From Pectobacterium peruviense (GTDB taxonomy: Bacteria > Pseudomonadota > Gammaproteobacteria > Enterobacterales > Enterobacteriaceae), in the NCBI RefSeq assembly GCF_002847345.1, contig NZ_LXFV01000010.1, positions 1 to 64,000 on the forward strand: 64,000 nucleotides of DNA, written 5' to 3'. This document shows, piece after piece, positions 5,734 to 35,667 of this stretch. A program made the translations under genes and the position numbers. The notes under the pieces are model-generated. The model was given only the letters and a program-made list of their open reading frames with translations, did not search any database and had not been told where the DNA came from. How positions within the stretch are numbered: position 1 is the first letter of the stretch; every line of letters begins with the position of its first letter.

Positions 5734-7380
5734 ATGAAAAATCTAATACCAATGGGCAGACCACACCTAAACAGCATTACGTTTGTGCTGATATTTTCTG
5801 CCTTTATTACTCTGGTCCAGAACATCGCCTACTACCGTCAAACGCTGCAACTGCTGGATATGGCGGACTGGATCAATATCCCTTTCTTCCTCAGCATGCC
5901 GGTAGTGATTTTCGCCGTGCTGAATATCATTTTCACGCTTCTGGCAGCGCCTTATCTGCGTAAGGCCGTCATTGTTTTCTTCCTGCTGTCCGGCGCTGCA
6001 GTGCAATACTTTATGCTGAACTACGGCATTATCATTGACCGCACCATGATCCAGAATATCGTTGAGACGACGGCCAGCGAGTCCTTTTCGCTTCTTACGC
6101 CGCAGCTGATCGTCTGGGTATTTTTCACTGGCGTCATTCCCGCAGCGGCGGCCATCTGGATAAAAATAAAACCCGCCAAGCCAACAACGCTCTATATTGG
6201 CCTGCGCTTTCTCAGCGTCATTATCTCGTTATTCGCTATTTTATCTGTCGCAGCATTCTTTTATAAAGATTACGCCTCGTTCATGCGTAATAACAAAGAG
6301 TTGGTAAAAGCGATTACGCCCAGCAATATTGTGGCAGCCAGTTTGTCCTACCATAAGCATAGCGCGCTGGCTAATTTGCCTCTGGTGCAAATTGGTCTGG
6401 ATGCCCGCAAAGTGCCGCCGTCATCTCCTACGGCAAAAAAGAATCTGGTTATTCTGGTGGTCGGCGAGACCTCTCGGGCACAAAACTTTTCGCTAGGAGG
6501 CTATGAGAAGGAAACCAATCCGTTGCTGACGAAAGACAATGTGGTTTACTTTGAGAACACGTCATCGTGTGGCACATCAACAGGTGTTTCCGTTCCGTGC
6601 ATGTTTTCCAACATGCCGCGACAAAACTTTGATGGTGGCTTAGCCAGCCATCAGGAAGGGTTGCTCGATATCTTACAACGGGCAAAAGTTAACGTGCTTT
6701 GGCAGGAAAATGACGGTGGCTGCAAAGATGCCTGTACGCGTGTGCCAACAGTTGATGTGACATCGCTGAAACTACCAGTGTTATGCACCCGCGGCGAGTG
6801 CCACGATGAAGCGTTATTCCACGGTGTAGAAGACTATATTAACAAGCTCGATAACGATGGGATTATTGTATTACATACGATAGGCAGCCACGGCCCGAGC
6901 TATTACCAGCGCTATCCTGACGCCTTTAAGAAATTTACCCCAACCTGTGATACCAATCAGATTCAAACCTGTACGCAGGAGGCACTGACCAACACGTATG
7001 ACAATACCATTCTGTATGTCGATTTTATTCTGGATAAAACGATCAACCTACTGAAGCAGCATCAGGATAAATTTAATACCTCACTGGTTTACCTGTCTGA
7101 CCACGGCGAATCGTTAGGCGAGAACGGCATCTACCTGCACAGCATGCCCTACTCTATTGCGCCGAAGCAGCAAACGCATGTGCCGATGTTGATGTGGTTA
7201 TCAGCAGGTTACCAGCAGCAACAGGCGATTCAAGACACCTGCCTGCGCCAGAACGCGAAGCAGCAGGATTACTCGCAAGATAATCTTTTCCATACCATAC
7301 TGGGGATGTTTAGTATCGCCACGAAAGAATATCAGCCTCAGCTCGATATCCTTCAGCCGTGCAGGGATAAGACAACATGA
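5734..7380 (+). CDS. eptA: Lipid A phosphoethanolamine transferase (EptA/PmrC family)
   Basis: This inner-membrane enzyme moves phosphoethanolamine from phosphatidylethanolamine onto lipid A, lowering surface charge and sensitivity to cationic peptides. The 548-residue protein has about five N-terminal membrane segments (residues 15-190) and a periplasmic alkaline-phosphatase-fold domain. Metal and catalytic residues are visible: Glu245 in VVGETSR, the nucleophile Thr283 in CGTST, and Asp456-His457 in LSDHGE. Cysteines at 279 and 289 and the pairs in GCKDAC, LCTRGEC and CDTNQIQTC match the family disulfides. It overlaps pmrA by four bases and has a PmrA box upstream. Which phosphate or sugar it modifies cannot be read from sequence. 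Confidence 0.93.
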
Positions 7381-8045
7381 AATTATTGATTGTTGAAGAC
7401 GATAAGCTGTTGCAGGAAGGATTATTCTTGGCACTGAGTCATGAAGGTTATGCCTGCGATTGCGCAGGCACGGCCAAAGAAGCGGACGCGCTCATCAGCA
7501 GTGCGCACTACAGTTTGGTCATTCTCGATCTTGGCTTACCGGACGATGACGGGCTCGCGTTGTTATCACGCTGGCGTAAAAATAATTACCAGCATCCCGT
7601 ACTTATCTTAACGGCGCGGGATAAGGTCAACGATCGCGTCAGCGGATTGGATGTTGGCGCCGACGATTATCTTGCCAAGCCTTTTGCACTGACAGAATTA
7701 CAAGCGCGCGTACGTGCGCTGATTCGCCGCAATCAGGGATCAAGCAACAGCAAGATACAGGTCGACAACATTACGCTGGATTTAAATAATCAACAGGTGC
7801 TGCTGGACGAAAAACCAGTGGTACTGACGCCAAAAGAGTTCGCGATACTTTCCCGACTAGTGCTGAAAGCCGGTTCTCAGGTACACCGAGAGCTTCTACA
7901 TCAGGATATTTATGCCTGGAACGACGACCCGTCCTCCAATTCGCTAGAAGTCCATATCCACAATCTGCGTCAAAAGATAGGCAAAGACCGTATCCGAACC
8001 CTGCGAGGTTTTGGCTACCTGTTGACCAAAGGGGATCAACCATGA
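7377..8045 (+). CDS. basR: Response regulator PmrA/BasR
   Basis: This is an OmpR-family response regulator of 222 residues, the same length as E. coli BasR. The receiver domain shows acidic residues Asp8-Asp9, the phosphoacceptor Asp51 in VILDLGLP, Thr in LILTARD and Lys in LAKPFA. The C-terminal winged helix (about 128-218) includes [13 protein letters not shown] and [11 protein letters not shown]. Its start overlaps the eptA stop (ATGA) and its stop overlaps the sensor gene the same way. In Pectobacterium the PmrA-PmrB pair is known to matter for plant interaction; here the linkage to eptA supports the lipid A role directly. Confidence 0.93.
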
Positions 8046-9136
8046 AGAGCGATGCCGACGCCGTCACCAGTATGCGTCGCCGTTTGGTGCTGGCACTGGG
8101 CGGCATCCTCCTCGTTTGCCAGATGATCAGCGTATTCTGGCTCTGGCACGAAAGCGAAGAACAGATCGGCCTGCTGGTTGATAAATCCCTGAGCGCCAGT
8201 GCCCAGAACATGCAGATCGATCAAGAGATTAATGAAGCAATCGCGTCGCTCAGTATTCCCAGTCTGGTGATGGTCATCCTGACATTGCTCATGTGCTTTC
8301 AGGCGGTCAGTTGGATCACCCGCCCGCTTTCTCGTCTACAGGAAGAATTGCAGGATCGCACGGCCGAAAATCTGGAACCGCTGCCACAGCAGAGCGACAT
8401 TAAAGAAATCGCCGCGGTCACCCATACCATCAACCAGCTTTTCCAACGCTTAGACGAAACGCTGAAACGCGACAGGCAATTTACTGCCGATGTCGCTCAT
8501 GAGTTACGAACTCCGCTAGCCGGTATTCGGCTACATCTTGAATTACACCAGCAACAGCATCAGATTGACTGCGGTTCACTTATCAAACGGATCGATAAGA
8601 TGGTGAAGACGGTGGAACAGCTCTTACTGCTTGCGCGTGTCGGACAAGAATTTTCGGCAGGCCACCACGAAAATGTCGCATTCCTGAAAGACGTTATTTT
8701 TCCCATGCAGGATGAACTAGCGGAGATGCTGCAAAAGCGCCAGCAAAGGCTGAAATGGGTATTACCGCAGGAAGATGTCTCTCTCCACGGTGATGCCACG
8801 TTACTCCAATTGTTGTTACGCAATCTGGTAGAAAATGCCTATCGCTATAGCCCGGAAGCAAGTCAGATCACGGTTAGCCTGATTAAACGGCAACACCTTG
8901 AACTACAGATCGAAGATGAAGGGCCGGGTATCGATGAAAGTAAGGTTGGTGAATTAAGTAAGGCGTTTGTTCGCATGGATAGTCGCTATGGTGGTATCGG
9001 TCTCGGACTGAGCATCGTGACGCGCATTGCTCAGTTGCACGATGGAAGATTTTTCCTTAGTAACCGACCGCAAGGCTCTGGTGCACTCGCGCAGGTGGTA
9101 CTAACCACGCCTGAGGAATACCCAGACTCAGCCTGA
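8042..9136 (+). CDS. basS: Sensor histidine kinase PmrB/BasS
   Basis: This two-pass membrane kinase has 364 residues. TM1 is about residues 14-33 and TM2 about 68-90, leaving a short periplasmic loop of about 35 residues. The loop contains ESEE, which fits the ExxE iron-binding pattern known from Salmonella PmrB. A HAMP-like linker ([13 protein letters not shown]) precedes the dimerisation/phosphoacceptor helix with His153 in [11 protein letters not shown]. The ATPase domain shows the N box ([12 protein letters not shown]), the G1 box (EDEGPGI) and the G2 box (GGIGLGLSI). It overlaps pmrA by four bases. That it senses iron or mild acid is inferred from the family. Confidence 0.92.
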
Positions 9137-9207: not shown

Positions 9208-10479
9208 TTATTGATACACAGGATAGCGGCGGCACAGCGCGACAACCTGCTCGCGAACACGATCGCGTATCACCGTTAACGCTTCATTCCCAGCACCTAG
9301 CCCATCCAGCACATCACATAACCACCCTGCCAGTTGCTCACACTCTGTCACACCGAAACCGCGCGTCGTCACAGCTGGCGTACCAATACGCAGGCCTGAG
9401 GTAACAAAAGGTGAACGTGGGTCGTTAGGCACCGAATTCTTATTTGTCGTGATGTAAGCATCGCTCAGCGCAGCGTCGGCATCCTTACCGGTATACGGCT
9501 TAGCAGACAGGTCGATCAGCAGCAAATGGTTGTCGGTGCCGTCGGAGACGATCTTGTAACCACGCAGTTGGATAATGCGCGCCATTGCCCGGGCGTTAGT
9601 CACGACCTGACGCTGATAAACCATGAAATCAGGGCGTAACGCTTCCTTGAAGGCTACCGCTTTAGCTGCAATAACGTGCATCAGCGGGCCACCTTGAATA
9701 CCGGGGAACACGGCGGCGTTGAGCTTTTTGTAAAAATCCTCACTCTGCCCCTTGGCCAAAATAATGCCACCTCGTGGGCCACGCAGGGTCTTATGCGTTG
9801 TACTGGTCACAACATGTGCGTGAGGGAGCGGGTTGGGGTATTCACCCGCCGCCACTAAACCAGCAACATGAGCCATATCCACCCAGAAGATAGCCCCCAC
9901 TCTGTCAGCAATAGTGCGCATACGCGCCCAGTCCTTGTGGCGTGAATAAGCGGAAAATCCTCCTATTAACATTTTTGGCCGGGTTTCCAAGGCAATACGC
10001 TCCATTTCGTCGTAGTCGATAAGCCCTGTTTCAGGGTCAAGACCATACGGTACGATCTTGTAGTGGCGACCAGAGAAGTTGGAGGGGTTCCCGTGAGTCA
10101 AATGCCCGCCCTGAGCCAGATTCATACCCATCACGGTGTCACCGGGGTTAGTCAAGGCCAGAAATACGGCGGCATTCGCCTGAGCGCCAGCATGGGGCTG
10201 GACGTTAGCGTAATCGCAGTCAAACAGCACTTTGGCCCGCTCGATAGCCAGACGTTCGGCTACGTCAACATACTCACAGCCGCTGTAGTAGCGCTTGCCG
10301 GGGTAACCCTCTGCGTATTTGTTGGTGAACACGGAATTCTGGACCGCCATCACCAGCGGACTGGCATAGTTCTCTGAAGCGATGAGTTCAACGTGGATTT
10401 CCTGACGGTGTTCTTCGTGCAAGATGGCATCGGCCAACTCAGGGTCGAAATCGGTAAGAGTTAAAGAGGTGTCATACAT
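9208..10479 (-). CDS. Serine hydroxymethyltransferase paralogue (GlyA-like)
   Basis: SHMT is a PLP enzyme that interconverts serine and glycine with tetrahydrofolate, or cleaves related beta-hydroxy amino acids. The 423-residue product keeps the fold-type I active site. The PLP lysine is in [14 protein letters not shown] (Lys230), with [29 protein letters not shown] and the substrate-carboxylate arginine in [10 protein letters not shown] prefer the ATG at 10477-10479 because AGGA lies eight bases upstream; two in-frame ATGs at 10485 and 10488 are closer to that site. The upstream yggS-like stop is ten bases away, so the two are coupled. The housekeeping glyA of enterobacteria lies elsewhere, so this is probably a second copy with a specialised substrate or induction condition. 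The paralogue status is inferred. Confidence 0.85.
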
Positions 10480-10489
10480 GGGCATCATC

Positions 10490-11326
10490 CTATGCGTTAA
10501 TCGTTGGTTTTTTTAAAGGGGATACTTCGGTGGTGGTTTCATCAGGCCAGTAGTAGCTATCCGGCAAAGGGCGTGCACCGAAGATCGCCTGACCGACGCG
10601 CACTACGGTGGCACCTTCCTCGATCGCGATCTCAAAATCGCCGGACATCCCCATGGATAATTCATCCAGTCCGATGCCAGCAGGCGCGTTTTGCTGCAAC
10701 CGATCGCGTAGGTTACGCAGCCGAATAAAACACTGACGTACGCGTTCGGCCTCGCTGGAGAACAACGCCAGCGTCATGAGCCCACGCACACGTAGCGCAG
10801 AGAATGTGGGAAGCGCCTGAATAAAAGCAGGAACGTCTTCAGGAGACAGGCCGTACTTACTCGCCTCACCAGAGGTGTTAACCTGCACGAAGACATCCAG
10901 TGAGCGTCCTTCAACGTGCAAGCGACGATCCAACGCTTCAGCCAGTCTCAGGCTATCCAATGCCTGAAATTCGCTAGCGAAGCGTGCCACCAGCTTAGCC
11001 TTGTTGGTTTGTAGATGGCCAATGACCGACCACTGTAAGTCGGCTAAGTCCTGCATGGCTTCCCATTTGCGGTACGCCTCCTGCACCTTGTTCTCACCCA
11101 ATATCCGGCAGCCTGCTATATGGGCCATACGCAGGCGATTTTCTGGCTTGGTCTTGCTGACTGGCAGCAAGCGCACGGTTGCTGGATCGCGGCCAACGCG
11201 GTGACAAGCCGCCTCGATGCGCATCTGTACTGCCGCCAGATTACGTTGAAAATCCTCAACCGTGGCGGTTTCAGGGTAGCGACCGTGACTATCGTGGCGA
11301 GTGGGTGTATCGGAAGATATCGGCAT
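10490..11326 (-). CDS. YggS/PLPBP-family pyridoxal phosphate-binding protein
   Basis: The product is an alanine racemase N-domain TIM-barrel protein of the PLP homeostasis (YggS/PROSC) family. The PLP lysine is Lys58 in LLPVSKTKP. Other family motifs are [41 protein letters not shown] and [12 protein letters not shown], and the phosphate-binding [12 protein letters not shown]. At 278 residues it is longer than YggS (about 234), with an extra N-terminal stretch of about 25 residues and a C-terminal tail. It is the first gene of a two-gene unit with the SHMT paralogue and divergent from a PLP-dependent MocR regulator. It probably supplies or buffers PLP for that module; an enzymatic role is not expected from the family. 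Confidence 0.87.
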
Positions 11327-11429
11327 CGGCCTAACTCCTGATAAAGAGGATGAATGGATTGTGAAACGTATTTATAGATTTAAAATAGCCGGATGTTCCC
11401 CACCATTTTTCTTATAAGAGGCAGACCAA
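11327..11429. promoter_or_regulatory. Divergent promoter region between the yggS-like gene and the mocR-type gene
   Basis: This 103-base AT-rich gap must contain both divergent promoters. MocR-type regulators usually bind direct or inverted repeats next to their own gene; I could not pick out a clear operator or canonical -35/-10 pair by eye. The assignment rests only on gene arrangement. Confidence 0.4.
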
Positions 11430-12926
11430 TTGTTCAAACACGCCCAGCTCGAATCTGTCAAAGCCTGGATTGGCGATCCCGCGCACGGCGCTTTGCCACT
11501 GCATGCTCGTATCCAGCGGGCGATTCGTCAGCTCATCCTCGATGGCATTCTCGATGTGGGAAAACCCTTACCCGCTTCGCGCGCGCTGGCTACATCGCTG
11601 GAGGTATCGCGTGATACGGTCGAATCGGCTTACAGCCAGCTGCATGCAGAAGGGTTCATTGAGCGTCGCGTAGGCAGCGGCAGTTTCGTGTCAGAGCGGG
11701 CAAAACGTCTTTCAGGACGTGGTAAAGCCAGAAAAACAGGAGATAGCAAAGCAGAGCTGCGTCTCAGTCAACGCGGCAGCGCCATGTTCCAGAATGGCGG
11801 TGTACGAGATTTCATCATACCGCGAGCGTTCGCGCCCGGCGTGCCGGAAACACGCAGCTTTCCCCTCCAGACGTGGGAACGACTAGAGCGGCAGGTGCTA
11901 AAAGAATATGGCACTAAAGCGCTGTTACACAGCCCGCCGCAGGGTATGGAAACGTTGAGACGAGCCATCGCAGATTATGTCAACCTCGAACGAGGAGCCC
12001 GCGCTACGCCAGACCGCGTGTTAGTGTTGACCAGTTCCCAGCAAGCACTCACTCTGTGCGCGAATGTGCTGATGGATGCTGGCGATAGGATCTTCCTTGA
12101 AGATCCTGTGTACCACGGCGCACGCAAGGCATTCGAGGCCGCCGGGCTCGCGTGCGTGCCTATACCGTTAGATGCGGATGGTTTGCAGGTCGATCACCTG
12201 CTTGAAGCAAGCAGCGGACACAATGCGCCCGCTAAAGCCGTATTCCTCACGCCCTCACACCAGTTTCCAACCGGCGCGACGCTGGCGTTGGATCGGCGGC
12301 TGGCAGTGATCGAATGGGCTAGGCAGCACCAAAGCTGGATTATTGAAGACGACTACGACAGCGAGTTTCACTACGCGGGCAAACCCACCGCCTGCGTACA
12401 GGGACTCGACCCGCACGATCGCACGATCTATATCGGCACCTTCACCAAATCGCTGTTTCCCGGCCTGCGCATCGGCTACATGGTACTGCCGCCGCAGTTG
12501 GTCGCACCGATGACCGTGGGCCGTACCTTGATGGATGGGCACAGCGCACCAATTCCGCAGCTCACGCTGGCACGCTTTATCGAAGGCGGCCACTTCGGTG
12601 CCCATGTACGCACGATGCGCACCATTTACGCGAAACGCCGCGATGTGCTGGCACAACTGGTTCGCCAGCATCTGGCTGATTTCGTAGAGCCACGGGTGCC
12701 GACTGGAGGCATGCAGATGCCCTGTATCTTCATCCGCGACATCCCTGAACACGATGCGGTGGAATCCGCACGCCGGGCCGGTATCGATCTACTCGGGCTA
12801 ACAGCGCTGTATGCATCGGGCCAGCATAAAGCAGGTTTCCTCATGGGATTTGCTGCCCACGCTCCGCATGAACTGGAAATTGCCGTCAAGACGTTGGCGA
12901 AGGTGCTAAGTGCGCTGTGCCGCTAA
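11430..12926 (+). CDS. MocR/GabR-type PLP-dependent transcriptional regulator
   Basis: The 498-residue protein has an N-terminal GntR-like winged helix (about residues 20-85: ARIQRAIRQLILDG, LPASRALATSLEVSRDTVESAY) and a C-terminal fold-type I aminotransferase domain. The PLP lysine is Lys340 in GTFTKSLFPGLRIGY. Other motifs are LTSSQQAL, EDPVYHGAR, TPSHQFPTGA and IEDDYDSEFHY. Such proteins sense PLP or a PLP adduct of an amino compound and regulate adjacent genes. The start is a TTG with AGAGG about eight bases upstream. It is divergent from the yggS-like and SHMT genes, the likely targets. The ligand is unknown; PdxR-like PLP control or serine, glycine or a related amino acid are the obvious options. 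Confidence 0.9.
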   Translation: MFKHAQLESVKAWIGDPAHGALPLHARIQRAIRQLILDGILDVGKPLPASRALATSLEVSRDTVESAYSQLHAEGFIERRVGSGSFVSERAKRLSGRGKARKTGDSKAELRLSQRGSAMFQNGGVRDFIIPRAFAPGVPETRSFPLQTWERLERQVLKEYGTKALLHSPPQGMETLRRAIADYVNLERGARATPDRVLVLTSSQQALTLCANVLMDAGDRIFLEDPVYHGARKAFEAAGLACVPIPLDADGLQVDHLLEASSGHNAPAKAVFLTPSHQFPTGATLALDRRLAVIEWARQHQSWIIEDDYDSEFHYAGKPTACVQGLDPHDRTIYIGTFTKSLFPGLRIGYMVLPPQLVAPMTVGRTLMDGHSAPIPQLTLARFIEGGHFGAHVRTMRTIYAKRRDVLAQLVRQHLADFVEPRVPTGGMQMPCIFIRDIPEHDAVESARRAGIDLLGLTALYASGQHKAGFLMGFAAHAPHELEIAVKTLAKVLSALCR

Positions 12927-29627: not shown

Positions 29628-29657
29628 TTTCATTTTTGTTGAAACAGCCATTTTATT
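29628..29657 (+). promoter_or_regulatory. Conserved palindrome and KdgR-box-like sequence of pelA
   Basis: The palindrome TTTCATTTTTGTTGAAA (29628-29644) is shared by all three tandem pel promoters at 80-90 bases before the ATG. Its right arm continues as GAAA-CAGCCA-TTTTATT, close to the described KdgR pattern GAAA-N6-TTTCA. Repression by KdgR is inferred from known pel biology; the match is imperfect. Confidence 0.5.
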
Positions 29658-29713
29658 ACACAGGGTGTGTAGTGATAAATACCCAAAAAATTCTATGTCA
29701 AGGAGAGTACACA

Positions 29714-30838
29714 ATGAAATACCTACTGCCTTCTGCAGCCGCTGGGCTGTTGCTGCTTGCTGCCCAACCGACAATGGCGGCAAATACGGGGGGTTATGCC
29801 ACCACTGACGGCGGCGATGTTTCCGGCGCTGTGAAAAAAACCGCACGCTCTCTGCAAGAGATCGTCGATATCATTGAGGCAGCGAAAAAGGATTCAAGTG
29901 GTAAAGCAGTCAAAGGTGGAGCCTACCCGCTCGTCATTACCTATAACGGTAATGAAGATGCACTAATCAAAGCGGCTGAAGCTAACATCTGTGGCCAATG
30001 GAGCAAAGATCCGCGTGGTGTAGAAATCAAAGAGTTCACCAAAGGGATCACTATCCTCGGTACTAATGGGTCTTCCGCTAACTTCGGCATCTGGGTGGTT
30101 AACTCTTCCAATGTTGTCGTACGTAACATGCGCTTCGGTTATATGCCGGGTGGCGCAAAAGATGGTGACGCTATCCGTATTGATAACTCACCGAACGTCT
30201 GGATCGACCACAATGAGATCTTCGCCAAGAACTTCGAATGCGCTGGTACACCAGACAACGACACCACTTTTGAATCGGCTGTCGATATCAAGAAAGCCTC
30301 AACCAACGTCACCGTGTCATACAACTATATTCATGGCGTGAAAAAGGTCGGTTTGAGCGGTTCAAGCAACACGGATACGGGTCGCAACCTGACTTACCAT
30401 CACAATATTTACAGCGATGTTAACTCACGTCTGCCACTGCAACGTGGTGGTCAGGTGCATGCTTATAACAACCTGTATGACGGCATCAAAAGTTCAGGCT
30501 TTAACGTCCGTCAGAAAGGGATCGCGCTGATCGAAAGCAACTGGTTCGAAAATGCCCTCAACCCTGTGACCGCACGTAATGACGACTCCAACTTCGGTAC
30601 CTGGGAACTGCGTAACAACAACATTACCAGCCCGTCTGATTTTGCTAAATACAACATCACCTGGGGTAAACCATCCACACCGCACATCAATGCGGATGAC
30701 TGGAAGAGCACCGGAAAATTCCCTGCCGTCCCGTATAGCTACTCCCCTGTTTCCGCACAGTGCGTGAAGGATAAACTGGCGAACTATGCTGGCGTAGGTA
30801 AAAACCAGGCAGTACTGACAGCAGCCAACTGTAAATAA
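29714..30838 (+). CDS. pelA: Pectate lyase, PL1 family (first tandem paralogue, PelA-like)
   Basis: This secreted enzyme cleaves polygalacturonate by calcium-dependent beta-elimination in plant cell walls. The 374-residue precursor has a 22-residue signal peptide (MKYLLPSAAAG...TMA, cleaved before ANTGG). Right-handed beta-helix motifs are visible: NVWIDHNEIFAKN and DTTFESAVDIK (calcium ligands), and NSRLPLQRGG with the catalytic arginine. Mature Pels leave through the type II system after Sec export. I chose the ATG at 29714 after AAGGAGA, not the longer open frame. Its own promoter and terminator suggest separate transcription. The symbol is assigned by order and may be permuted. Confidence 0.9.
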   Translation: MKYLLPSAAAGLLLLAAQPTMAANTGGYATTDGGDVSGAVKKTARSLQEIVDIIEAAKKDSSGKAVKGGAYPLVITYNGNEDALIKAAEANICGQWSKDPRGVEIKEFTKGITILGTNGSSANFGIWVVNSSNVVVRNMRFGYMPGGAKDGDAIRIDNSPNVWIDHNEIFAKNFECAGTPDNDTTFESAVDIKKASTNVTVSYNYIHGVKKVGLSGSSNTDTGRNLTYHHNIYSDVNSRLPLQRGGQVHAYNNLYDGIKSSGFNVRQKGIALIESNWFENALNPVTARNDDSNFGTWELRNNNITSPSDFAKYNITWGKPSTPHINADDWKSTGKFPAVPYSYSPVSAQCVKDKLANYAGVGKNQAVLTAANCK

Positions 30839-30848
30839 ATGCATTAAT

Positions 30849-30879
30849 CCCGGCGTATTCACTCTACGCCGGGTTCTTC
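30849..30879 (+). terminator. Terminator of the first pel gene
   Basis: The stem CCCGGCGTA/TACGCCGGG (30849-30857 and 30865-30873) is nine base pairs with a seven-base loop, followed by TTCTTCC, ten bases after the stop codon. Confidence 0.8.
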
Positions 30880-31376
30880 CTGAGCGAGTTCTTTGGGCTC
30901 GATCATTTTTTACGGCACATGGAGATGAATAATAATTATTTCTTAACAAACTAAAATTCAATGTAAAATTAACCCATACAAAAACAAAACTGAATGTGCC
31001 TGTGATATTATATTTTGACTTAAGATGAATTATTTACGTTAGTCTCAGCGCTCACCATCATAAAAGTAGCGATGTAAAATCATATAGATAAAGAAACCAG
31101 AATAAATCAATCATCCATTTAAATAATAACCTACTGATTTTCAATTACTTTAAAAGAATATCGTTTCCTATAAAATCCAAATCATCCAATCATCAGTATT
31201 ACAAAATGTTTCCACTGTAATACATTTAACATTTCACCCTTGAATTGAACTTATTTTTTGACCACACTCCCCTTGGTTTTTCATCAAAATTGATGATTCA
31301 TTTTTGTTGAAAAATGTGTGTCGGGCATATGGAGCGATAAATGCCCATGAAATTCTATTCCAAGGAGACAGTCATA
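30880..31376. other. pelA-pelB intergenic regulatory region
   Basis: About 500 bases of AT-rich DNA without a plausible gene. It carries the shared palindrome ATTCATTTTTGTTGAAAA near 31296-31312 and, only in this promoter, the adjacent perfect palindrome TCATCAA-AA-TTGATGA (31281-31296). A TCACC half-site near 31052 is at the place of the CRP-like sites of the other two genes but is degenerate. Confidence 0.6.
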
Positions 31377-32501
31377 ATGAAATACCTATTGCCTACGGCA
31401 GCCACTGGATTGTTATTACTCGCGGCTCAGCCAGCGATGGCAGCAAATACGGGCGGCTATGCCACCACAGATGGTGGAGAAGTTTCCGGCGCTGTGAAGA
31501 AAACCGCACGTTCTCTGCAAGAAATTGTGGATATTATTGAAGCTGCGAAAGTGGATTCAAAAGGCAAGAAAGTCAAAGGCGGTGCTTACCCGCTCATCAT
31601 CACCTATAACGGTAATGAAGATTCATTAATCAAAGCGGCTGAAAAGAATATTTGCGGCCAATGGAGTAAGGACGCTCGCGGCGTACAAATCAAAGAGTTC
31701 ACCAAAGGCATTACCATCCAAGGTACCAATGGTTCATCCGCCAACTTCGGTGTCTGGATCGTGAACTCCTCTGACGTCGTAGTACGTAATATGCGCTTCG
31801 GCTATATGCCAGGCGGTGCGCAAGACGGTGACGCCATTCGTGTTGATAACTCTCCAAACGTCTGGATTGACCACAACGAGATCTTTGCCAAGAACTTTGA
31901 GTGTAAAGGCACACCAGACAATGACACGACTTTTGAATCGGCCGTCGATATCAAAAAAGGGTCAACCAACGTCACGGTGTCATATAACTACATTCATGGC
32001 ATCAAGAAAGTCGGTCTGAGCGGCGCAAGCAATACGGATACGGGACGTAACCTGACTTACCATCACAATATTTACAGCGATGTTAACTCACGTCTGCCGC
32101 TGCAGCGTGGTGGTCTGGTTCACGCCTACAACAACCTGTATGACGGCATCACTGGCTCCGGCTTTAACGTCCGCCAGAAAGGGATTGCGCTGATCGAAAG
32201 CAACTGGTTCGAAAATGCGCTCAACCCAGTGACGGCACGTAACGACAGCTCCAACTTCGGTACTTGGGAGTTGCGTAACAACAACATCACAAAACCAGCG
32301 GACTTCTCCAAATACAACATCACCTGGGGTCGCCCTTCTACGCCTCACGTCAATGCTGATGATTGGAAAAGCACCGGCAAGTTCCCTTCCATTTCTTACA
32401 AATACTCTCCGGTTTCGGCGCAGTGTGTGAAGGATAAACTGGCAAACTACGCTGGCGTGGGTAAAAACCTGGCGGTACTGACAGCAGCTAACTGCAAATA
32501 A
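31377..32501 (+). CDS. pelB: Pectate lyase, PL1 family (second tandem paralogue, PelB-like)
   Basis: This 374-residue secreted endo-pectate lyase is a close paralogue of its two neighbours. The signal peptide MKYLLPTAATG...AMA differs by a single residue from the PelB leader commonly used for periplasmic export, which supports the name. The PL1 motifs NVWIDHNEIFAKN, DTTFESAVDIK and NSRLPLQRGG with the catalytic arginine are intact. The start at 31377 follows AAGGAGA. Its promoter lacks the strong CRP-like site of the other two copies and has an extra palindrome, so regulation may differ. A 50-base block is identical to pelA. Confidence 0.93.
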   Translation: MKYLLPTAATGLLLLAAQPAMAANTGGYATTDGGEVSGAVKKTARSLQEIVDIIEAAKVDSKGKKVKGGAYPLIITYNGNEDSLIKAAEKNICGQWSKDARGVQIKEFTKGITIQGTNGSSANFGVWIVNSSDVVVRNMRFGYMPGGAQDGDAIRVDNSPNVWIDHNEIFAKNFECKGTPDNDTTFESAVDIKKGSTNVTVSYNYIHGIKKVGLSGASNTDTGRNLTYHHNIYSDVNSRLPLQRGGLVHAYNNLYDGITGSGFNVRQKGIALIESNWFENALNPVTARNDSSNFGTWELRNNNITKPADFSKYNITWGRPSTPHVNADDWKSTGKFPSISYKYSPVSAQCVKDKLANYAGVGKNLAVLTAANCK

Positions 32502-32522
32502 ACGCGGTCTGATTTACCCTTG

Positions 32523-32551
32523 AGCGAGCTCTTAGAGCTCGCTTATTTTTT
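32523..32551 (+). terminator. Terminator of the second pel gene
   Basis: The stem AGCGAGCTC/GAGCTCGCT (32523-32531 and 32535-32543) has a three-base loop and is followed by TATTTTTTA. Confidence 0.88.
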
Positions 32552-32750
32552 ATGAGGACCGACAAATGAACATGAGTATGCATCCCAATAAAGAGGGAAT
32601 AAATTAAATATCATGCTAATTATTTTATGAGTTAATTATCTTTGTTATTGATGTAATCAAAAATAATTCACAACACGGGATTAATTAATAATTTGATCGG
32701 CGTCAATTATTTTTTGACATGGTCATCTCAATGAAGGATTTTACTTATTT

Positions 32751-32766
32751 CTTGATGGCGCTCACA
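32751..32766 (+). promoter_or_regulatory. CRP-like site upstream of the third pel gene
   Basis: CTTGA-TGGCGC-TCACA matches the CRP consensus TGTGA-N6-TCACA at eight of ten positions and starts 346 bases before the ATG, the same distance as in the first pel promoter. Confidence 0.5.
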
Positions 32767-33006
32767 TTTATCACCTTTATCAAAACTCTCCCAACGTAGA
32801 ATAACAAAACGAAATATAATTTTATTTTTCATAAAAACTCTGAATGCATCTATTTTAGAAAAAATGAAAAAAATATCATCATTTAAAATAGAGACTTATT
32901 AATCATCAGCATTCCCCTGCGTTATTCAGTCGATATATTTAATATCTAAATATTGAATTATTTTATTTTTATGATAACACTTAATCTGGGTTTCAATAAA
33001 CCTAGA

Positions 33007-33040
33007 TTTCATTTTTATTGAAACACCAAAATAATATAAT
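33007..33040 (+). promoter_or_regulatory. pelC promoter with conserved palindrome
   Basis: The palindrome TTTCATTTTTATTGAAA (33007-33023) overlaps a poor -35 (TTTTTA, 33012-33017), followed at 17 bases by a perfect TATAAT -10 (33035-33040). A strong -10 with a weak -35 fits an activator-dependent promoter, and a repressor on the palindrome would block it. Confidence 0.6.
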
Positions 33041-33096
33041 CTGGGTGATGTGGAACATTAATACCCAAAAAATTCTATTCCAAGGAGAGTACCCTA

Positions 33097-34221
33097 ATGA
33101 AATACCTACTGCCTTCTACAGCCGCTGGGCTGTTATTACTTGCGGCTCAACCGACAATGGCGGCAAATACGGGAGGTTATGCCACCACTGACGGTGGTAA
33201 CGTTGCTGGTGCAGTGAACAAAACGGCGCGCTCTATGCAAGATATCATTGATATTATCGAAGAGGCGAAGCTGGATTCTAAAGGTAAGAAAGTCAAAGGT
33301 GGGGCTTACCCACTCATCATCACCTATAACGGTAATGAAGACGCGCTGATCAAAGCTGCTGAGAACAATATCTGCGGCCAGTGGAGTAAAGATGCTCGCG
33401 GTGTGGAAATCAAAGAGTTTACCAAAGGGGTTACCATCATCGGTACCAACGGATCTTCCGCTAACTTCGGGATCTGGCTGACAAAATCATCCGATGTCAT
33501 CATCCGTAATATGCGCTTTGGTTACATGCCGGGCGGCGCGCAGGACGGTGATGCCATTCGTATCGATAACACGCCGAACGTCTGGATTGACCACAACGAA
33601 ATCTTCGCGAAAAACTTTGAATGCGCAGGTACAAAAGACGGTGACACCACCTTCGAATCTGCGATTGATATCAAGAAAGCCTCTACCAACGTGACGGTGT
33701 CGTACAACTACATTCACGGCATCAAAAAGGTGGGGCTGAGCGGCTTCAGCAGCAGCGATACGGGCCGCGATCTGACTTACCATCACAATATTTACGACGA
33801 CGTTAACGCGCGTCTCCCACTGCAACGTGGCGGTCAGGTTCACGCTTACAACAACCTGTATACCGGCATCACCAGTTCTGGTCTGAACGTACGCCAGAAA
33901 GGGATTGCACTGATCGAACGTAACTGGTTCGAGAATGCGAAAAACCCGGTGACCTCACGTTACGACGGTTCCAACTTCGGTACCTGGGAACTGCGTAATA
34001 ACAACGTCATGAGCCCAGCCGACTTCGCTAAATACAATATCACTTGGGATAAAGACACCAAGGCCTACGTGAATGCTGAAGACTGGAAAAGCACCGGCAC
34101 GTTCGCTTCACTCCCTTACAGCTACTCTCCGGTTTCACCACAGTGCGTGAAGGACAAACTGGCAAACTATGCTGGTGTGAACAAAAACCTGGCCGTGCTG
34201 ACAGCAGCAAATTGCAACTAA
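33097..34221 (+). CDS. pelC: Pectate lyase, PL1 family (third tandem paralogue, PelC-like)
   Basis: This is the third 374-residue pectate lyase, with signal peptide MKYLLPSTAAG...TMA and mature start ANTGGYATTDGG. The PL1 beta-helix motifs are present: NVWIDHNEIFAKN, DTTFESAIDIKKAS, TYHHNIYDDVNARLPLQRGG with the catalytic arginine, and WFENAKNPVTSRYDGSNFGTW. It is more diverged from the other two than they are from each other (for example DDVNARLPL in place of SDVNSRLPL). It lies upstream of pelZ, separated by two hairpins, one a clear terminator. The symbol is assigned by order. Confidence 0.9.
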   Translation: MKYLLPSTAAGLLLLAAQPTMAANTGGYATTDGGNVAGAVNKTARSMQDIIDIIEEAKLDSKGKKVKGGAYPLIITYNGNEDALIKAAENNICGQWSKDARGVEIKEFTKGVTIIGTNGSSANFGIWLTKSSDVIIRNMRFGYMPGGAQDGDAIRIDNTPNVWIDHNEIFAKNFECAGTKDGDTTFESAIDIKKASTNVTVSYNYIHGIKKVGLSGFSSSDTGRDLTYHHNIYDDVNARLPLQRGGQVHAYNNLYTGITSSGLNVRQKGIALIERNWFENAKNPVTSRYDGSNFGTWELRNNNVMSPADFAKYNITWDKDTKAYVNAEDWKSTGTFASLPYSYSPVSPQCVKDKLANYAGVNKNLAVLTAANCN

Positions 34222-34389: not shown

Positions 34390-35667
34390 ATGAAACGTTC
34401 TCTTCTGTTCGCCGCACTGTTCAGTACCTGCACAGTATTCAGTGTCGGCATACCGATGGCTAGCGCCGCCACGCCAGCGGCACCAGAGTTGAAAGGATTC
34501 GGAACGGATACCGTGGCAGGCAGCGGTGGACGCATTATTCGCGTCACAACGCTGGCTTCTTCCGGAGCCGGTTCACTCAGAGAAGCACTGGCCACCAAAG
34601 GGCCACGTATTATCGTTTTCGAGGTTGGTGGCATCATCGACCTGAATAAAAGTGACCTTCGATTAGCTGAGCCGTTTGTCACCATCGCTGGCCAAACTGC
34701 ACCCTCTCCCGGTATCACCATCATTCGCGGCGGGATGGGGATTAGCACGCATGATGTGCTCATGCAGCATATTCGTTTTCGCATCGGCGATGCCGGTACG
34801 GGTAAAAAAAGCGGCTTTGAACGCGATGTTTCAATCAACGGCAAAGATGCCTATAACGTGGTGATCGACCACTCCAGTTTCGCCTGGGGGACAGACGAGA
34901 ATCTGTCTATCTCCGGCCCACGCTACGACGGGCCGCAGGGCACCGCACACCGCATCACGCTTTCAAATAATATCGTTGCTGAAGGCTTATACGACTCGGC
35001 TCACACTAAAGGCATTCACTCGATGGGGACGCTGGTTCACGATAACGTGACTGACGTGTCGATCGTGGGCAGCCTGTATGCCCACAACAACGAGCGCAAC
35101 GCCTGGTTCAAGGCGGGTTCAACAGGCGTCATGGTCAATAACCTGATCTACAATCCTGGCATCTGGGGCGTTCGCGTTGGTGGTGTAAAAGGAGAATGGG
35201 AAGGGAAAACCATGCCCGCTAGCCCGCGTGTTTCCGTCGCGGGTAACGTGATGCACTACGGCGCAAATACCAAAGCGGGTTTAGGGCTGGTAGGGAGCAA
35301 CAGCTCCGGCGATGTCTGGATGTCGGATAACCTCGCCTACGATGCCAAAGGCAGCGCTGCTCCGCAAACGTCAGGCACTGGGATTACGTTACTCAAGGTG
35401 TCCCCTATTTGGCCTGCGGGCTTAACGGCATCAGCGGCCAGCGCCGTCACCAATCAGGTACTGCAAAGCGCAGGCGCACGCCCCAGAGATCGTGATGCCG
35501 TCGATAAGCGTATCGTGGATAACGTCAAACAGCGGAAAGGTGGCTTCGTGAACAGCCAGGAAGACGTTGGCGGCTACCCCGTTGCAACGGCAACCTACCG
35601 TCAACTGAACGTACCCAGTACCGGCGTGGACGCCTGGCTACAACAGATGGCAAAAGCGCTGGAGTAA
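34390..35667 (+). CDS. pelZ: Pectate lyase PelZ-like
   Basis: This 425-residue secreted protein is a distant PL1 lyase resembling Dickeya PelZ. The signal peptide is about 26 residues (MKRSLLFAALFSTCTVF...ASA, cleaved before ATPAAPE). Beta-helix features include GPRIIVFEVGGIIDL, NVVIDHSSFAWGTDENLS (calcium-site region) and YAHNNERNAWFKAG. In Dickeya pelZ follows pelBC and encodes a minor lyase; the position after pelC here agrees. The Shine-Dalgarno sequence AAGGAA precedes the ATG at 34390. It has no clear promoter of its own and lies right after the pelC terminator. Confidence 0.85.
   Translation: MKRSLLFAALFSTCTVFSVGIPMASAATPAAPELKGFGTDTVAGSGGRIIRVTTLASSGAGSLREALATKGPRIIVFEVGGIIDLNKSDLRLAEPFVTIAGQTAPSPGITIIRGGMGISTHDVLMQHIRFRIGDAGTGKKSGFERDVSINGKDAYNVVIDHSSFAWGTDENLSISGPRYDGPQGTAHRITLSNNIVAEGLYDSAHTKGIHSMGTLVHDNVTDVSIVGSLYAHNNERNAWFKAGSTGVMVNNLIYNPGIWGVRVGGVKGEWEGKTMPASPRVSVAGNVMHYGANTKAGLGLVGSNSSGDVWMSDNLAYDAKGSAAPQTSGTGITLLKVSPIWPAGLTASAASAVTNQVLQSAGARPRDRDAVDKRIVDNVKQRKGGFVNSQEDVGGYPVATATYRQLNVPSTGVDAWLQQMAKALE

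Follow-up and report, generated by a model that had tools for sequence, protein, structure and literature searches.

A second serine hydroxymethyltransferase and a divergent YggS paralogue form a horizontally spread, MocR-linked gene module in Pectobacterium and other bacteria

Why should a bacterium that already has a serine hydroxymethyltransferase (SHMT) and a YggS-type carrier of pyridoxal phosphate (PLP) encode another of each, side by side, next to a regulator with a PLP lysine of its own? This question is raised by a 64,000-nucleotide stretch of Pectobacterium peruviense DNA (RefSeq assembly GCF_002847345.1, contig NZ_LXFV01000010.1, forward-strand positions 1 to 64,000), the whole of which we call the window. 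A MocR-type regulator gene (11430-12926, plus strand) diverges from genes for a YggS-like protein (YggS2, 10490-11326, minus strand) and an SHMT (SHMT2, 9208-10488, minus strand), and a 103-base control region with three MocR-type boxes (11327-11429) lies between them. We find that this trio is a conserved, horizontally spread module under selection. As to function, we infer, with about even confidence for and against, that the trio is the smallest version of a horizontally spread kit for times of PLP shortage, whose dedicated carrier would load reserve enzymes.

All three products match the expected families. The regulator, read from a TTG start, combines a GntR winged helix-turn-helix domain (PF00392) with a fold-type-I aminotransferase domain (PF00155) and has its PLP lysine at Lys340 (motif TFTKS). 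It scores 410 bits against the PdxR model NF052282 (cut-off 320) and 430.5 against a rhizopine MocR model, below that model's cut-off of 650. YggS2 scores 196 bits against TIGR00044 (cut-off 106) and has the Schiff-base lysine of the family, Lys58 (SKTKP). SHMT2 (PF00464) scores 622 bits against NCBIfam PRK00011 (cut-off 335). Its longest open reading frame (ORF) puts the PLP lysine at Lys233 and leaves 1 base between the yggS2 and shmt2 genes; a start at the fourth codon (10479, 423 amino acids), likely because this residue is the first one matched in 14 of 21 relatives, gives Lys230 and a spacing of 10 bases. A sequence-only reading of this DNA had described a self-contained PLP module, three PLP-lysine genes in a divergent unit with Lys340, Lys58 and Lys230 and two genes ten bases apart. 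This description holds, the last two figures by the fourth-codon start.

That reading had also taken the SHMT for a paralogue, as it proves to be. The same genome encodes a second SHMT (glyA, 65% identity) and a second YggS (37%) elsewhere, and each of the 25 genus genomes compared (own included) has a glyA and a yggS apart from the trio. In a tree of 50 SHMTs, 28 SHMT2 rows (27 distinct, as L056 and L137 are one sequence) form a clade on a 100/100 branch, apart from 20 other SHMTs taken from YggS2-carrying genomes; two distant SHMTs are set apart from the 28. The clade spans Pectobacterium, Burkholderiales, Pseudomonas, Stenotrophomonas, Tistrella and others. SHMT2 neither groups with the GlyA of relatives nor is the sole copy in its genome. 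An ordinary glyA beside unrelated genes is rejected on the strength of the second glyA, the separate clade and the clustering of partners at YggS2. The outcomes that the sequence-only reading had named as refuting it, grouping with housekeeping GlyA as the only copy or a trio unconserved in relatives, were both looked for, and neither was found. Across 35 YggS2 genomes, hand-chosen and including 18 of 21 known SHMT2 loci so that the true share of SHMT2 is lower, SHMT2 (≥75% identity) was found in 22. All but one of the 22 have a further SHMT at ≤69%; in the exception, G091, the second copy is at 75%.

SHMT2 is intact in its catalytic and cofactor motifs across eight inspected stretches, whose roles we presume, and no new chemistry is indicated for it because these motifs are kept. 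Of the 'SHMT or aldolase' in the earlier reading, the SHMT is thus the likelier. Compared with housekeeping GlyA (structure 1dfo, which we take to be E. coli GlyA), SHMT2 has these motifs in common but differs in its separate clade and in the PHSGSQ loop, where both serines are replaced by alanine in 24 of 28 SHMT2 rows (24 of 27 distinct) and in none of the 20 other copies. Several of those 20 have one of the two changes.

YggS2 departs further from its housekeeping counterpart. It is 37% identical to YggS of its own genome and 40% identical to the E. coli copies. Its predicted structure has the fold of E. coli YggS (1w8g; also Synechococcus PipY, 5nlc), as judged by re-examination of Foldseek's list rather than by a search. 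The prediction reaches a mean pLDDT (per-residue confidence) of 85.6 and a pTM (global score) of 0.82, with two of five models above 80 and three at 46-57; residues 1-10 and 263-278 fall below 50 and the tail block 251-260 is at 66. Lys36, Lys89, Lys137 (E. coli numbering) and most of the PLP pocket are kept. The position of E. coli Thr223, whose side chain contacts the PLP phosphate (PMC9601805), is Gln in 96 of 96 YggS2 sequences and Thr or Ser in 22 of 22 others. Relative to E. coli YggS, T223Q, P84H and I166L are invariant and Y58K and A33P near-invariant, and YggS2 ends in a C-terminal PDxYYWP tail. In the window protein, the changed pocket residues are Lys80, His104 and Gln246 and the tail reads PDSYYWP. 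The 80 loci examined below were retrieved with six seed peptides drawn from this protein. Two of the seeds contain His104 and Trp260, so the sampling itself partly favours these two residues; no seed contains Gln246 or Lys80. Because the phosphate-binding Thr/Ser is replaced by Gln, the trio's YggS is by its sequence a distinct, divergent subfamily rather than a standard YggS, with the common fold, Schiff-base lysine and most of the pocket of housekeeping YggS/PLPHP (1w8g, 5nlc) but different pocket residues and tail. Five copies from Alcaligenaceae-type genomes (L210-L214) are 50-57% identical to YggS2, have some of the pocket changes and keep Ser/Thr at the phosphate site; they are possible intermediates.

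The regulator and its operator are consistent with a PdxR-type regulon. Predicted MocR regulons commonly have multi-box operators with TGG or TGT cores (PMC5320631). Upstream of the MocR start, the half-sites TGGNCTG/CAGNCCA occur 41 times exactly in 27 loci (the window and 26 loci outside Pectobacterium), compared with 1.16 expected and a maximum of 7 in 500 shuffles, which keep base counts only; the rows are not independent. Positions -44/-45, -31 or -8 account for 36 of the 41, and 23 of the 27 loci have at least one exact half-site. The operator is similar in 18 other Pectobacterium rows (16 distinct genomes, as L034/L007 and L035/L010 are the same contigs). In the window, the one exact box (CAGACCA, about -8) abuts the regulator's TTG codon, which supports this start and suggests that the regulator autoregulates through the predicted box. 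A promoter scan gave one match against a shuffle mean of 2.4, fewer than by chance, and was not used.

We identified at least 581 confirmed relatives and examined the best 80 YggS2 loci. In these, partner genes recur: MocR (25 loci), a PtsJ-type regulator (18), the PLP enzymes SHMT2 (21), ArgD (14), SerC (8), TrpA (2) and TrpB (1), and BenE (21), a GATase of PRK07053 type (19), PdxK (16) and a major facilitator superfamily (MFS) protein (2). One 151-residue GNAT query found no match in the best 80, while L041 has an acetyltransferase after YggS2 and L056 a GNAT-cluster ORF. All three genes of the trio co-occur in 18 of the best 80, an outcome in favour of the sequence-only reading in the neighbourhood check that it proposed. 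Arrangement is also conserved: MocR is divergent upstream of YggS2 in 24 of the 25 loci that have it (L077 differs), and in all 21 loci with SHMT2 this gene follows YggS2 on the same strand. The regulon's putative targets in the window are yggS2 and shmt2 only; in longer versions they may include PdxK and BenE. In loci of at least 12 kb, a MocR or PtsJ-type regulator accompanies 38 of 59 YggS2 genes versus 2 of 20 control yggS genes, and a PLP enzyme is nearby in 23 of 59 versus 0 of 20; the controls are other yggS genes, taken from the own genome and from 19 of the 35 just mentioned for SHMT2, the queries came from YggS2 loci and the loci are not independent. The three proteins' distances correlate across the 18 trio loci (mirror correlation, Spearman 0.63-0.75), a result we do not use as evidence of contact because block transfer and shared ancestry explain it. 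The closest named YggS2 loci among the best 80 are from Pectobacterium (93-94%).

When 299 genomes (own included) were drawn evenly from the phylum, YggS2 was present in 8 (E ≤ 1e-98) and SHMT2 in 3 (E ≤ 1e-205), all 3 within the 8 and two of them from this genus. In E. coli, none of 5426 genomes has a place covering 80% of the trio, and glyA accounts for the five matches listed out of 5376 records. In four Stenotrophomonas loci (L046, L079, L088, L089), the gene after YggS2 is another one, common to all four (cluster c16, up to about 355 residues), and in L099, L102 and L107 YggS2 is near a conserved block with a protein of about 1160-1190 residues and shared ORFs (c27, c29, c26, c45).

YggS2 is also carried on plasmids. 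A seed-free tblastn search yielded 83 matching records, from which we took 15 plasmid loci (13 annotated). SHMT2 above 80% identity occurs in three plasmid records, of 274 with any SHMT match, and all three have YggS2. Two plasmids typed conjugative, from Pseudomonas sp. BYT-1 and an uncultured bacterium (pKAZ5) (L114, L119), have a long form in which MocR diverges from BenE, YggS2, PdxK, an ArgD-type aminotransferase, TrpB, TrpA and SHMT2, with further genes interspersed. On Enterobacter, Lelliottia and Rahnella plasmids, an annotated ptsJ diverges from YggS2, and a PfkB-type kinase is annotated in the first two. A Prescottella plasmid (L116, 1-11311) has a divergent PtsJ-like regulator that scores 509 bits, below the 573 cut-off (the one PtsJ copy tested elsewhere is above it). 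On one side of its YggS2 are a PfkB-type kinase, a GNAT gene and SerC, and on the other an aminotransferase, GabT, IlvA, a TrpB-like enzyme and GlyA. The Agrobacterium and Rhodococcus plasmids have an SHMT outside the SHMT2 clade beside YggS2, which suggests that SHMTs have been recruited to YggS2 repeatedly. No other PLP enzyme is annotated in the fetched stretch around the Tsukamurella and Paracoccus plasmid copies.

Within the genus, intact YggS2 is present in 18 of the 25 genomes, intact SHMT2 in 16 and full-length MocR in 19. Wherever SHMT2 is intact (16 genomes), YggS2 and a full-length MocR accompany it. Intact genes are under purifying selection, with median dN/dS values of 0.043 for SHMT2 (16 genomes), 0.086 for YggS2 (18) and 0.056 for MocR (17). 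In YggS2 matches marked with stops, the stops are behind the tail, and all 17 fetched copies (L005-L021) are open to the YYWP tail. Elsewhere, G013 and G014 keep MocR with YggS2 reduced to a fragment, SHMT2 is gone from G020, in G021 it is broken into three pieces and the regulator is matched only from residue 58, and G007 has MocR and YggS2 as fragments. YggS2 and SHMT2 were not found in G009, G010, G016 and G019 in this comparison; in G009, 144 bp of MocR survive between fkpA and a pmrB-like gene, and G016 has these two genes joined within about 30 bp. Probably the trio was gained and afterwards lost on more than one occasion.

How might such a module work? In the reading we prefer, a PdxR-type MocR would sense the PLP level and, when PLP is short or blocked, switch on the divergent operon through the boxes beside its own start codon. 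YggS2, a YggS/PLPHP-family carrier with a changed pocket, probably suited to readier cofactor release, would then load SHMT2, a reserve SHMT, so that one-carbon metabolism could continue when housekeeping GlyA goes apo. Larger versions would add import (BenE, a putative B6 transporter), phosphorylation (PdxK) and reserve ArgD, SerC and TrpAB. PLP is the likelier signal, judging from the regulator families, because the regulator passes the PdxR cut-off and PtsJ accompanies the same YggS2 subfamily elsewhere; the amino compound sensed through a PLP aldimine, as the sequence-only reading had it, is unsupported.

Work on known family members is consistent with this reading. The MocR protein PdxR activates genes for PLP synthesis, and PLP lowers its activity (review PMC6071262). 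Holo-YggS of E. coli binds apo-SHMT (dissociation constant 4.8 uM) and passes PLP to it, and the double deletion of yggS and glyA is inviable on LB; the transfer is slow and incomplete (about 15%), and YggS binds PLP at about 1 nM (PMC9601805). Because lysine variants of E. coli YggS that bind PLP more weakly transfer more of it (PMC9601805), and because YggS2 has lost the Thr223 contact and has a changed entrance, the YggS2 pocket would favour release. Data also support YggS loading a PLP enzyme in vivo (PMC13353753). In Salmonella, PtsJ represses pdxK, and loss of PtsJ raises PdxK and so makes YggS dispensable if pyridoxal or pyridoxamine is provided (PMC13353753), which fits the loci that combine YggS2, PdxK and PtsJ.

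Several known systems resemble parts of the module. Zur regulons respond to shortage of a cofactor by turning on uptake, a carrier and spare zinc-free client paralogues; the likeness is in logic only, and SHMT2, unlike the zinc-free paralogues, retains its cofactor (PLP) lysine. We know of no Zur-like shortage system for PLP, nor of reserve enzymes linked to the Salmonella PtsJ-PdxK pair. In that pair a MocR-family repressor controls PdxK, which overlaps with YggS in PLP supply (PMC13353753); a PtsJ-type regulator is present at 18 of the best 80 loci. Also close are the PdxR regulons predicted by Suvorova and Rodionov in 2016, which have the same regulator type as the trio and include GlyA-family SHMT, COG325, BenE, an ArgD-family aminotransferase, a GuaA-family amidotransferase and acetyltransferases (PMC5320631). 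The PdxR-SHMT-COG325-BenE association is hence not new, and the view that the trio is not a described system was too strong. In the parts of that paper available to us, the COG325 member is not set apart as a changed subfamily and the duplication of housekeeping enzymes is not remarked; its main text does not contain Pectobacterium, plasmid, isozyme, tryptophan synthase or SerC, and its supplementary tables, outside the search, may list these loci (PMC5320631). Beyond it, the open literature, covered through titles, abstract starts and some passages, with subscription papers and supplements outside, yielded no description of the trio, of a YggS subfamily with a changed phosphate site or of plasmid islands of spare PLP enzymes. 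Within that range we met no account of the spare-enzyme logic, its plasmid carriage or the changed carrier.

The module bears on how PLP reaches its many enzymes and on the real role of YggS/PLPHP, whose human homologue is linked to B6-dependent epilepsy. The trio links a YggS variant genetically to SHMT, the acceptor of E. coli YggS PLP in vitro (PMC9601805), and its invariant substitutions and co-transferred client permit a direct test of carrier specificity and dedicated pairs. The plasmid-borne long form suggests repeated selection by PLP shortage or by PLP poisons. A stronger version, a cofactor-emergency kit that crosses phyla, with a PLP sensor, a YggS2 changed at its PLP sites and entrance for fast hand-off and dedicated reserve clients fed when the pool fails or is poisoned, is possible but doubtful; if true, it would be the first case of a carrier hard-wired to its clients for PLP, akin to the Zur paralogues for zinc or to iron-sulphur carrier systems.

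A number of observations weigh against the shortage reading. PLP shortage is not known to us as a common state of prototrophs. The trio is dispensable, with 9 of 25 genus genomes lacking an intact set and showing scars and broken copies. SHMT2 is missing from 13 of the 35 YggS2 genomes and 25 of the best 80 loci have none of the searched partner genes, so YggS2 is not tied to SHMT2. Support for the YggS2 clade is only 81% (quick tree, 49 of 96 YggS2). Finally, the window's -44 and -31 boxes are degenerate, with no exact half-site match, and 4 of 27 loci are without any exact half-site.

The main rival, less likely yet compatible with the same data, is that the islands confer tolerance to blockers of PLP or PLP enzymes, such as a B6 antagonist or an amino-oxy, hydrazine or vinylglycine-type inhibitor. 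Spare enzymes would be less sensitive, GNAT and MFS proteins would modify or export the compound, and MocR would sense the compound or the loss of PLP. The patchy presence in the genus and the make-up of the duplicated set, mostly biosynthetic PLP enzymes plus TrpA, needed by TrpB, agree with this, as do the conjugative-type plasmids, whose long form comes with GNAT and MFS genes (one annotated as a fosmidomycin resistance protein). A cyanobacterial YggS homologue also contributes to resistance to PLP-directed antibiotics (PMC5504682). However, there is no sign of insensitive enzymes, as SHMT2 motifs are ordinary and the phosphate loops of TrpB and ArgD are intact by eye; MFS and GNAT are rare at the best 80 loci (the counts above, with the L041 and L056 genes as a caveat), and BenE and PdxK suit supply better than resistance. 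The same intact TrpB and ArgD loops, with the single Ala changes in several other SHMTs, led us to reject an altered cofactor for all island enzymes, an idea prompted by the phosphate-contact changes in SHMT2 and YggS2.

Rather improbable is a regulon for uptake and use of an external amino compound, in which MocR would sense the compound, SHMT2 (aldolase or SHMT) would degrade it and YggS2 would supply PLP. Many MocR regulators control catabolism (GABA, taurine, ectoine; PMC5320631), and L-lactate permease and DapA-like genes are beside some YggS2 copies. The frequent partners ArgD, SerC, SHMT and TrpAB are nonetheless biosynthetic, with GabT on one plasmid as the exception; the regulator swaps with PtsJ, SHMT2 keeps its SHMT motifs and the Pectobacterium trio has no transporter gene inside it. 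Slightly less probable still is that YggS2 has given up carrying PLP and become an enzyme, for example a racemase or one that repairs damaged PLP adducts, in which the new Lys80, His104 and Gln246 would take part.

In the window, the trio sits between a pmrB-like gene (end 9136) and fkpA, and has a GC content of 54-58% against 48-53% in flanking windows. The earlier reading's claim that it interrupts an fkpA-yheO adjacency is half right: fkpA and yheO are indeed apart here, but the trio shares the interval with an eptA-pmrAB-like block. This block (5734-9136) comprises eptA-like, pmrA-like and pmrB-like genes, also inside the yheO-like/fkpA interval; the names eptA, pmrA, pmrB, yheO and fkpA, like the E. 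coli gene order, are our presumed assignments. The yheO-like and fkpA-like stretches adjoin in G025, from another genus of the family, and G019 is without most of the eptA-pmrAB-like block, so the yheO-fkpA gap looks like an insertion hot spot. Further along the window, three closely related tandem genes (29636-34221) are followed by a different gene (34390-35667), all of which we take to be pectate-lyase-like.

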